A model generated the notes under the pieces. That model ran no database searches and was not told where the DNA came from. It worked only from the letters and a program-made list of their open reading frames with translations. A stretch of 64,000 nt of DNA. Source: an uncultured Pseudomonadota bacterium (GTDB lineage Bacteria; Pseudomonadota; Alphaproteobacteria; RF32; CAG-239). Of the stretch, positions 37,919 through 40,788 are shown one piece after another. The translations under genes and the position numbers were made by a program. Every line of letters starts with the position of its first letter. Within the stretch, counting starts at the first letter, position 1. The DNA lies in NCBI GenBank assembly GCA_949295085.1, contig CASFJS010000005.1, positions 133,707 through 197,706 on the forward strand. The letters are read 5' to 3'.

Positions 37919-38374
37919 ATGAAACTCAATGAAATCAGAGATAACGAAGGCGCCAGAAAGCCCCGCAAGCGTGTGGCGCGCGGTATCGGCAGCGGCTCCG
38001 GCAAAACGGCCGGTCGCGGTCAAAAGGGCCAGAAGTCGCGTTCGGGTGTTGCCGTTAACGGGTTTGAGGGCGGCCAGATGCCGATTTATCGCAGACTGCC
38101 GAAAAGAGGTTTTAAAAACCACTTTGCCAAAGAGTTTGCCATTGTTAATCTGGACAGCATTCAAAAGGCGCTTGACGCCGGCAAACTGAATGCCGAAGAG
38201 ATTAATATTGAGGCTTTGTTGAAAGCCGGTCTGGTCAATAAAAAGCTGGATGGTGTTCGTCTGCTGGCCAGAGGCGCGATTACCTCAAAAATCAACATTA
38301 CGGTTAACTCGGCGTCTAAGTCGGCGGTTGCCGCGGTTGAAAAAGCCGGCGGTAAAGTCAGCCTGGTGGCTTAA
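37919..38374 (+). CDS. rplO: 50S ribosomal protein L15
   Basis: A 151-residue L15, a late-assembly 23S protein. [19 protein letters not shown], the Gly-rich [22 protein letters not shown], and [18 protein letters not shown] define it. It normally precedes secY directly; here a terminator and a ~1-kb minus-strand insertion intervene. Confidence 0.98.
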
Positions 38375-38393
38375 GAGTTTGCTTGCATAGCGC

Positions 38394-38430
38394 AAAAAAT
38401 CCGTCCTTTTATTTGAAGGGCGGGTTTTTT
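38394..38430 (+). terminator. Terminator between rplO and secY
   Basis: A ~12-bp stem with G-U pairs (38397-38408 with 38416-38427) runs into a six-T tract. It ends the upstream part of the spc operon 20 bp after rplO. Confidence 0.88.
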
Positions 38431-38436
38431 GTTATG

Positions 38437-38993
38437 TTATTTATCCGGTGTGTATAGATATATACAGGTTTTAATGAAACCCCAAGACAGATCTATTCGT
38501 CTTTTTAATTTAAGAACGGAGAGTTTGAATACTTCAGACAGAACAAGACTGTCGGAGGTCAGTTCTTTATTGAGTTTGCTGCCTATTTTTGTTCAATGCC
38601 GGTACCGAGATAACATAAAATCAAACGATATTCCGATAAATCTTCAAGAAAAAAGTCGCGATACTTTATCGTTATGTTAGGCAAATTTCTGGTTTTGTAG
38701 ACGGCCAGCATATAAGGGATGATATCCTATTCGTAACCGACAAATTGATGGTTTGGAAATTGTTTGGCCAAAGGAATCAGTAAACTGCCGGAACCGCAGC
38801 CGAGACAACGGTTTGGGCGTCGGGGTGTTGTTGCAAAAACAATGCAGCCTGGCGGATGGTTTCTTTTTTGGGTTTGCCAAAAGAGGCTATAAACGGCGGG
38901 TTAAGGCCCCTGCTCTTGACAAAATAGATAATCAACCACAAATTAAAAAAAACAGGCCAGAATAAACAAAAACAGCGCAAAATAAAAAAACAT
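38437..38993 (-). pseudogene. Decayed SAM-dependent methyltransferase gene
   Basis: Read on the minus strand in three alternating frames, the region gives one continuous protein-like series. It begins with an AAGGAG site seven bases ahead of an ATG at 38993: a hydrophobic segment MFFYFALFLFILACFF, a frameshift in a run of eight T, then KSRGLNPPFIASFGKPKK, a second shift just before the SAM-binding motif LGCGSGSLLIPLAKQFPN, then HQFVGYE followed by an in-frame TAG, DIIPYMLAVYKTRNLPN, a third shift after LCYLGTG, and finally KLNKELTSDSLVLSEVFKL ending at TAA 38437. The order (membrane helix, PPF..TPKK-like segment, GCGSG, LxxxLxxELxPGSxVVS-like end) fits a membrane-anchored class I methyltransferase. 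At least three frameshifts and one stop make a functional product very unlikely. Confidence 0.82.
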
Positions 38994-39017
38994 TCGGACA
39001 GCTCCTTGTTCGAGAAT

Positions 39018-39042
39018 AAAAAAAGCCGCCTTTGTCGGGGCG
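39018..39042 (-). terminator. Minus-strand terminator upstream of the methyltransferase pseudogene
   Basis: On the minus strand a CGCC...GGCG(GC) stem is followed by seven T residues. It lies between the structured element at 39042-39115 and the ribosome site of the pseudogene. The stem is short (4-5 bp), so strength is moderate. Confidence 0.5.
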
Positions 39043-39212
39043 ACTGGAAGTTGGAAACTACCGAAAGATAGTGCGACATATTGACTGAAACAGCGTATTT
39101 TGCCGCCTTCCAGTCATTGTGATGACTCTCAGACGTGCAAAATTTTCGTCTTTACACTACAGACGCTTTCGGAGAGGTTTCCACACCCCGGAACGGTCTA
39201 TCAACCATTCCG
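39019..39212 (-). ncRNA. Candidate small RNA or attenuator leader (minus strand)
   Basis: On the minus strand a promoter-like pair TTTACT (39242-39247) and TACGAT (39219-39224), 17 bases apart, precedes ~195 nt with no open frame of note. The transcript would contain small hairpins and then a three-way junction: a 9-bp closing stem GACTGGAAG/CTTCCAGTC (39107-39115 with 39042-39050) enclosing one arm GCGGC/GTCGC (39102-39106 with 39073-39077) and one CTATC-TTTC-GGTAG arm (39058-39071). The terminator at 39018-39042 follows at once. It could be a free-standing small RNA or a regulatory leader of the decayed methyltransferase gene. No known family (6S, SRP, RNase P, tmRNA, common riboswitches) was recognised. 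Confidence 0.42.
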
Positions 39213-39344
39213 CCGATCATCGTATTTGATTTTGCGGCAAAAGTAAAGAAAATTGAGTTTAAAGGGGATTGTTTGAAAAAGTTTTTTGGGTTTGTCGATA
39301 AAAGCCGGGCAACTTCTTTTGTGTGCGGTAAAGGGATAAAACAG

Positions 39345-39372
39345 TTGCATTAAAAATTTTTTAGTGTATTAA
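39345..39372 (+). promoter_or_regulatory. Promoter-like sequence for secY-adk
   Basis: TTGCAT (39345-39350), 16 bases, TATTAA (39367-39372), 67 bp before secY. Since a terminator follows rplO, secY needs a promoter of its own. A weak AGGG...CCCT hairpin lies between it and secY. Confidence 0.5.
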
Positions 39373-39438
39373 TATCTTAGCTTAAAAGGGTTTTAAAAAA
39401 GCCCTGATTGTTGTTTTTGAATTTTTAAGGAAGTAAAA

Positions 39439-40788
39439 ATGGTTTCATTGGCAGAAAAAATGGCGGCAAATATGGATATGTCCGCCTTCAGCAAAGCAGA
39501 TGAATTAAAGAAAAGATTGTGGTTTACCGTGCTGGCGCTGATTGTGTTTCGCGTCGGGACGTTTGTGCCGCTGCCGGGGATTGACCCGACAATCGTGGCC
39601 GAGTTGTTTGCCCGTAATTCCGGCGGTCTGTTGGGGATGTTTAATATGTTTGCCGGCGGCGCGCTGGAACGTATGACCATTTTTGCTTTGAACATTATGC
39701 CTTATATCTCGGCCTCGATTATCGTGCAGCTGGGACAATCGATTATTCCGTCGCTGCAATCGTTGAAAAAAGAGGGCGAGGCCGGACACCGCAAGATTAC
39801 GCAGTATACCCGCTATCTGACGGTGTTGATTACGATTATCCAAGGCTATGGTATCGCCGTCGGGCTGGAAAGCATGAGCGGCGCCAGCGGTATGTCGGCG
39901 GTGTTGTTGCCGGGCGGTTTGTTTAAGTTTACGACGATTGTTTCGTTGGTCGGCGGGACGATGTTTATTGTCTGGCTGGGCGAACAGATTACCGCGCGCG
40001 GCGTCGGCAACGGGTCGTCGTTGATTATTACCGTGGGTATTATCGCCAATATTCCGTCAGCCTTGGCGCAGACGTTTGAACTGGGGCGCGTCGGGTCGAT
40101 GTCGACGGGGGTTATTTTGATGTTGCTGGTGATGGCGGTGGCGCTTGTTTATCTGATTATCTTTGTTGAGAGAGCGCAGCGCAAAATCATTATTCAATAC
40201 CCCAAACGTCAGGCAATGGGGCGTATGGGCGCGGCCGAGAGTTCGCACCTGCCGCTTAAGATTAACCCGACCGGTGTTATTCCGCCGATTTTTGCCAGCT
40301 CGTTGTTGCTGTTGCCGATAACCATTGCCAATTTGAGCGCCGAAAACGGCCCGGCCTGGGTACAGAATTTGTCGCAGATGCTGGGACACGGTCAGCCGTT
40401 GTATTTGGCTCTGTATGCGTTTTTGATTGCGTTTTTTGCTTTCTTTTATACCGCGATTGTGTTTAATCCGGAAGAAACGGCGGAAAATTTGAAAAAACAC
40501 GGCGGATTTGTTGCCGGTATCAGACCGGGCAAAAATACCGCCGAGTATCTGGACTATGTGATTACCCGTCTGACGGTTTTGGGCGCGGTTTATCTGGTCG
40601 GTTTGTGTATTTTGCCGGAAATTCTTATCAGCAAGTTGTCGGTGCCGTTTATTTTGGGCGGTACGACGCTGCTTATCGTGGTGCAGGTGACCATGGATTT
40701 TGTCGGGCAGATACAGTCGCATTTGTTGGCCTATCAGTATGAGTCATTAATCCGCAAAGCCTCTCTGGCCGGCAAAAAGAGAAGATAA
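39439..40788 (+). CDS. secY: Protein translocase subunit SecY
   Basis: SecY forms the protein-conducting channel of the inner membrane. The 449-residue protein has ten hydrophobic helices. Family segments: FRVGTFVPLPGIDP, GMFNMFAGGALERMTIFALNIMPYISASI (split; plug-domain region), ITARGVGNGSSLII, and LPLKINPTGVIPPIFASSLL in the cytoplasmic loop. An AAGGAAG site precedes the ATG. adk follows after one base, a conserved pairing. Confidence 0.99.
   Translation: MVSLAEKMAANMDMSAFSKADELKKRLWFTVLALIVFRVGTFVPLPGIDPTIVAELFARNSGGLLGMFNMFAGGALERMTIFALNIMPYISASIIVQLGQSIIPSLQSLKKEGEAGHRKITQYTRYLTVLITIIQGYGIAVGLESMSGASGMSAVLLPGGLFKFTTIVSLVGGTMFIVWLGEQITARGVGNGSSLIITVGIIANIPSALAQTFELGRVGSMSTGVILMLLVMAVALVYLIIFVERAQRKIIIQYPKRQAMGRMGAAESSHLPLKINPTGVIPPIFASSLLLLPITIANLSAENGPAWVQNLSQMLGHGQPLYLALYAFLIAFFAFFYTAIVFNPEETAENLKKHGGFVAGIRPGKNTAEYLDYVITRLTVLGAVYLVGLCILPEILISKLSVPFILGGTTLLIVVQVTMDFVGQIQSHLLAYQYESLIRKASLAGKKRR

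Follow-up and report, generated by a model that had tools for sequence, protein, structure and literature searches.

In many bacteria the rplO-secY junction is tight. In the stretch of DNA analysed here (the window, 64,000 nucleotides from an uncultured alphaproteobacterium), the ORF list places the 3' end of rplO at 38374 and the start of secY at 39439, which raises the question of what occupies the spacer and whether it got there by breaking an operon. The answer that we regard as quite probable is that an old rplO/secY boundary has received a unit consisting of a regulatory leader RNA of a phage-antirepressor family and the now dead methyltransferase gene that it controlled. The spacer and its flanking genes are laid out as follows.

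37919 to 38374, plus strand: rplO, recognised by its ORF and by the spc gene order.
38392 to 38432, plus strand: rplO terminator, a strong terminator-like hairpin with an equivalent in the minimal spacers of congeners.
38440 to 38993, minus strand: pseudogene of a methyltransferase of the class I SAM-dependent type, located by tblastn with the intact homologue of the congener G030.
39000 to 39007, minus strand: Shine-Dalgarno sequence of the pseudogene, AAGGAGCT, read from the sequence.
39019 to 39210, minus strand: leader RNA of about 195 positions, placed in the alphaproteobacterial branch of the sRNA-Xcc1/antirepressor-leader family by two covariance models (R1, 182 bits; R2, 25.1 bits, E 1.2e-6).
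39219 to 39247, minus strand: putative leader promoter, TTTACT-17-TACGAT; TTTAC/TTGAC and TATA-like boxes are kept at the equivalent place in other copies.
39345 to 39372, plus strand: secY promoter, TTGCAT-16-TATTAA, conserved in congeners and in the family.
39439 to 40788, plus strand: secY, an ORF.

The anatomy described in the earlier note (an rplO terminator, a decayed methyltransferase on the minus strand, a structured element with its own terminator and a promoter for secY) was thus recovered in full. Read 5' to 3', the minus-strand unit comprises the putative promoter, a structured RNA with a T-tailed hairpin, the Shine-Dalgarno sequence and the methyltransferase pseudogene. The latter has frameshifts in at least two places as well as in-frame stops, and aligns in three different frames with the 185-aa product of the intact G030 gene (tblastn, 52-72% identity, best E 7e-55); this intact homologue (L072:9725-10279) matches Pfam Methyltransf_12/25/31. 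In agreement with the earlier note, which saw no transposase, the window spacer contains no transposase- or integrase-like ORF, and no recombinase family appeared among the scanned insert proteins of relatives. The rplO-terminator hairpin carries T-runs on both strands and, to judge from these, may also have ended minus-strand transcripts. A small hairpin (AGGG...CCCT, 39387-39405) was seen in the 5' UTR of secY in the window; in other congeners its arms are GGGACT..AGTCCC-like and differ between species with complementarity kept, and it is possibly a regulatory site.

The age of the boundary was addressed by comparing the spacer within the genus. SecY was found in 32 of its 35 genomes, the rplO-secY distance being measured only where both genes lay on one stretch; most of the genomes compared throughout this work are metagenome-assembled (MAGs). 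The spacer ranges from 115 bp to 4,874 bp, and the rpsE-rpmD and rpmD-rplO spacers stay short. The smallest typical spacers (180 bp in G013, 184 bp in G001 and 186 bp in G012) consist of the rplO terminator followed by a secY promoter of the window type, which reads GTTGAATTAAATTTTTTTTAGTGTATTAATATC in G013. This promoter, conserved in 28 of 30 congeners, escaped a generic consensus scan of the window spacer despite that conservation. It is kept in five species where rplO is no longer upstream (G002, and G005, G018, G009 and G026, in which other genes occupy the upstream side of secY), and it recurs in 15 of 22 additional family genomes, sister genera included, with a variant in four more. The two congeners lacking it, G032 and G020 (L082 and L083), have the shortest spacers of all, 115-120 bp, in which a different long hairpin, GAACTTCTGC...GCAGAAGTTC, lies between rplO and secY. 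In G002, secY lies 36 kb away from rplO; the intervening ORFs, from a reading of their translations, resemble ordinary chromosomal genes, so that an island or prophage was rejected in favour of a rearrangement.

Because the terminator and the promoter are both present in minimal spacers, and the promoter recurs across congeners and family, the operon split predates the insert. On these comparisons the rplO/secY boundary, with its terminator and a separate promoter for secY, is ancestral, contrary to the view of the earlier note that the promoter was a new one gained after the insertion. The spacers of different species hold different, mostly unknown genes. Judged by its sequence content, the spacer is a permissive site for insertions and rearrangement breakpoints; transcriptional insulation at the old boundary would allow both to be tolerated. 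The spacer of G031 holds a small HTH gene (L071:1728-2030), of which a recognisable remnant occurs in the spacer of G021 (L079). These two species are widely separated on the SecY tree, and repeated use of one site is a possible explanation.

The leader and methyltransferase have a much narrower distribution. Upstream of secY the unit is confined to a single clade of seven species, the other 23 congeners being without it; the clade is defined by a single-gene (SecY) tree, in which the fork joining the seven species has support 85/94. Four of them (G000, G029, G011 and G030) have both leader and methyltransferase upstream of secY and G010 has the methyltransferase only, while neither was found at this position in G002 and G031. 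This distribution is consistent with a single gain and later decay and loss, and it bears out the proposal that the unit was acquired. The comparison of relatives suggested in the earlier note supports its interpretation in part, the insert being clade-limited and the boundary itself ancestral. In G010, G029 and G011 (spacers L066:2274-4166, L069:2450-4741 and L070) proteins of 631-837 aa adjoin the methyltransferase; they have no Pfam match, and their C-terminal regions are alike.

The structured RNA is not restricted to this locus. R1, the covariance model of the alphaproteobacterial leader, gave one to eight matches in each of 29 of the 35 genomes of the genus, the weakest being doubtful. 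A sample of 385 genomes from the whole class gave matches in 25, spread over 14 families. Scanning 84,980 species genomes for the core motif yielded at least 80 loci; among the matches listed, nearly all were in MAGs of Alphaproteobacteria, many from animal gut or rumen. The same motif had no match in 2.9 million viral contigs, and the alphaproteobacterial branch therefore looks chromosomal. One contig binned as Gastranaerophilales (L264) carries a leader of the alphaproteobacterial type and a lipoprotein gene nearly identical to those of co-sampled Alphaproteobacteria; its assignment is probably a binning error.

The copies lie mostly 10-40 nt upstream of genes on the same strand. In 79 of 91 copies an ORF that starts with ATG and encodes at least 55 aa begins 3-50 nt past the RNA; the corresponding counts are 3 of 91 for the divergent side and 288 of 1820 for random positions, and the remaining 12 copies lack an ORF in that range. 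A large share of the downstream genes encode products of the cell surface: 13 of 72 match an outer-membrane beta-barrel family, and further matches are to the Opacity, Surface_Ag_2, PEGA, glycosyltransferase and Stealth families. The translations also show lipoprotein signals and pilin-like N-termini. Thus the structured element of the earlier note does exist, but its identity as a multi-copy leader RNA had been missed. The genome of the window itself has a diverged copy (L193, region C12:19973-20056; R1 32.8 bits, R2 28.1 bits), which precedes a long repetitive protein resembling a surface adhesin. Two tandem leaders on the same strand were seen at L149 (1216-1381 and 1501-1671), with no ORF found close past the second.

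The window element folds 5.7 standard deviations better than its shuffled versions, none of 200 shuffles being as good. Its parts are as follows.

39024 to 39045, minus strand: intrinsic terminator of the leader, a T-tailed hairpin from a hairpin scan, with a covarying stem.
39042 to 39050, minus strand: 3' strand CUUCCAGUC, which forms the antiterminator with GACUGGAAG or is left available to the terminator.
39052 to 39058, minus strand: 3' strand of helix P1, GUUUCCA, covarying in 91 sequences.
39061 to 39067, minus strand: 3' strand of helix P2, CUUUCGG, identified by an own-versus-swapped test.
39107 to 39115, minus strand: switching strand GACUGGAAG, which pairs with 39124-39134 or with 39042-39050.
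39166 to 39172, minus strand: 5' strand of P2, CCGAAAG, from the same test and also present in the minimum-energy fold.
39177 to 39183, minus strand: 5' strand of P1, UGGAAAC, covarying in 91 sequences.

Every position of P1 is paired in 88-91 of the 91 class-wide sequences, a count that leans towards the modelled structure, as this alignment (A2) was fitted to R1 with P1 included. P2 is absent from the R1 model, and its strands are complementary in 97.8% of the 91 sequences versus 8.6% after strands of different sequences are interchanged. A local hairpin next to P1 was dropped, P2 being the better partner in the class-wide alignment.

Two alternative structures around the terminator are conserved in 26 sequences of the genus. 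In the terminator state 93.5% of cells are paired and 18 of 48 pairs show changes on both sides, compared with 31-51% paired and 2-8 such pairs in slid controls. The antiterminator state has equal support (96.8% paired; 18 of 46 pairs). Alignment column 121 has column 79 as its partner in one state and column 149 in the other; in five related sequences all three have changed jointly, from G/C/G to A/U/A. Similarly, column 111 has partners in columns 92 and 185, and both pairings are kept through changes in one sequence. The AT helix is almost invariant, its pairing resting on one covarying column and on conservation. The element therefore has, as a riboswitch does, alternative pairings tied to an expression platform, with two states and a shared strand.

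From these pairings a mechanism can be proposed. The leader would be transcribed from its own promoter, and the long-range helices P1 and P2 would bring its ends together. When GACUGGAAG is paired upstream, CUUCCAGUCGCC would be free to form the terminator (OFF); when GACUGGAAG is instead paired with the downstream strand CUUCCAGUC, the terminator stem would lose its base (ON). We infer this OFF/ON polarity from the modelled structures, together with action in cis, processing and the existence of a trigger.

The relatives of the leader were sought in Rfam and among phages. The sole Rfam family to match was sRNA-Xcc1 (RF02221), against whose model the window copy scored 34.1 bits and the best alphaproteobacterial copies 44.8 and 43.5 bits, all under the gathering cut-off of 53 bits, and formal membership in this family was accordingly rejected. 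RF02221 itself is found above its cut-off in 35 of 299 Pseudomonadota genomes. At 30 such loci, of which 18 were aligned (P1 97% paired, against 30-52% in slid controls), pairing was found between an upstream strand and the one that precedes the terminal stem (own -29.5, swapped -20.5 kcal/mol, p 3e-9); the same strand is also complementary to the downstream ribosome-binding-site region (own -21.75, swapped -16.1 kcal/mol, p 2e-6), both p values being indicative since the swapped pairs are not independent. In the alphaproteobacterial branch the latter complementarity is weak (-13.5 versus -11.6 kcal/mol). In the phage branch the same 3' strand could pair instead with the ribosome-binding site of the gene, as in C4 antisense RNA. 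Eight of the ten proteins scanned downstream of RF02221 loci have a match to a phage regulator or toxin family: Bro-N in three cases (one below cut-off), KilA-N, P22_AR_N, Phage_pRha twice and SymE. A phage search with the leader of L173 led to Escherichia phage Rac-SA53, in which the element (78.1 bits) lies about 39 nt upstream of the annotated ant gene; a search with the single leader L186 found nothing. Similar DNA occurs in 159 E. coli genomes, and antA/AntB antirepressor annotations lie under several of the best matches.

A second covariance model, R2, was built only from RF02221 loci. Of 47 alphaproteobacterial leader loci it recovered 31 in register (26 scoring at least 15 bits), the window copy with E 1.2e-6. 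On 192 kb of control DNA it gave one match, of 14.2 bits, downstream of rplO in G002; this match falls in a hairpin-rich stretch beside a tRNA-like sequence and was rejected as a false positive, setting the trust level at about 15 bits. Reciprocally, R1 found the Rac-SA53 leader (E 0.008); the E-values of both models are rough. Helix order and in-register matches agree with common ancestry, and on this evidence the element is homologous to full-length leaders of which Rfam sRNA-Xcc1 represents the 3' half. A literature search, which covered few subscription papers, returned no text joining sRNA-Xcc1 with an antirepressor, and RF02221 was named in two texts.

These results bear on several other readings of the locus. 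The earlier note held that a transferred unit broke an intact rplO-secY operon, after which secY evolved a new promoter. The general tightness of this junction and the restriction of the unit to one clade speak for such a history, but it is refuted by the insert-free minimal spacers holding both terminator and promoter, the promoter extending through most of the family sample, and we give it very little credence. Just as improbable is a dispersed repeat, or a small mobile element, that came to lie upstream of genes by chance. The several copies per genome in unrelated places speak for a repeat; however, the copies keep a fixed orientation and distance relative to the start codon, pairing is kept through compensatory changes and the core motif is missing from the viral contigs, and repeat or mobile DNA was rejected as the identity of the element on the grounds of orientation and covariation.

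Two readings of the RNA itself carry more weight. The element could be a stand-alone, trans-acting sRNA as described for sRNA-Xcc1, with its position before genes fortuitous. It has a putative promoter and a terminator of its own, sRNA-Xcc1 was detected as an 88-nt RNA (PMC2996969), and C4 RNA, which is cut out of a leader, acts in trans (PMC5320573). Set against this are the fixed distance and orientation to the start codon in 79 of 91 copies and the two conserved alternative pairings around the terminator, and we consider a stand-alone sRNA unlikely. Somewhat less unlikely, though still doubtful, is a ligand-binding riboswitch in which the conserved core GGCGGCAAAAUA...CAAUAUGUCGCAC would be the aptamer. 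Nearly invariant unpaired residues, a pseudoknot, a closed multi-helix domain and the alternative terminator pairing would suit such a function, as would the presence of two output modules, a terminator in the alphaproteobacterial branch and ribosome-binding-site pairing in the phage branch. On the other hand, the downstream genes have no metabolic theme, and a phage antirepressor switch needs no metabolite. Beyond the reading of a leader RNA landed on an old boundary, a broader proposal can be made, tentatively: the element may belong to a widespread class of signal-sensing leader RNAs, either riboswitches or leaders answering a phage or host factor, with two interchangeable output modules, which would control surface proteins of gut Alphaproteobacteria and phage antirepressors, and of which sRNA-Xcc1 would be the 3' half.

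The RNA family as read here joins three separate things: a plant-pathogen sRNA of Rfam that has been read as trans-acting, the antirepressor leaders of E. coli prophages and a multi-gene surface regulon of gut Alphaproteobacteria. If this reading is right, many RNAs annotated as sRNA-Xcc1 would need reinterpretation as parts of mRNA leaders, and the switch could be tested in laboratory E. coli. An RNA common to the control of surface proteins and of phage antirepressors would suggest that a lysis/lysogeny switch was exchanged, or co-opted, for the control of the cell surface. Of lesser weight is the operon part, where an apparent operon break turns out to be an insertion into an existing boundary.

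Among known systems, the closest is sRNA-Xcc1 (RF02221), detected as an 88-nt sRNA (PMC2996969). The 3' half of the element is homologous to it in register, and RF02221 loci share the upstream strand of P1 and precede genes. The Rfam model, however, describes a free sRNA of 87 nt, whereas the element is about 195 nt long, and the alphaproteobacterial branch combines a terminator module with surface genes where RF02221 loci combine ribosome-binding-site pairing with phage regulators. Homologues in Xylella have been read as vesicle-borne trans-acting sRNAs, including five copies about 380 nt apart at 1,313,466-1,315,082 of Xylella fastidiosa Temecula1 (PMC12189769); on the present reading these five may each be the leader of one small gene in a tandem series. 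The most frequent integron cassette of Xanthomonas has sRNA-Xcc1 directly upstream of symE (PMC12444791). The L179 locus, where an RF02221 element precedes a SymE_toxin gene by 38 nt, has the same arrangement; the RNA is read as a separate one in Xanthomonas and as an mRNA leader here.

The C4 antisense RNA of phages P1/P7 (RF01695; related c4-2 RF02944, clan CL00128) is released by RNase P from a longer transcript; of its loops a' and b', b' covers the ribosome-binding site (PMC5320573). It resembles the present family as an RNA in the leader of an antirepressor transcript; its two-part (a'/b') complementarity to the ribosome-binding-site region may have a counterpart in the RF02221 branch, to judge from the pairing energies there, which are weak in the alphaproteobacterial branch. 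Placement of the C4 type, upstream of an antirepressor gene in the same orientation, is seen in the RF02221 branch only and not in the window copy, and the alphaproteobacterial branch differs from C4 in using a terminator. The Rfam C4 models matched none of the elements, one weak c4-2 match in L169 lying elsewhere. We regard C4 as an analogue in presumed mechanism and claim no kinship. With terminator-type riboswitches and attenuators the leader shares a promoter of its own, a closed structured domain, a terminator/antiterminator alternative, a start codon shortly after and a presence at several unlinked genes per genome. It differs from them in having a sister branch that serves phage antirepressors and symE.
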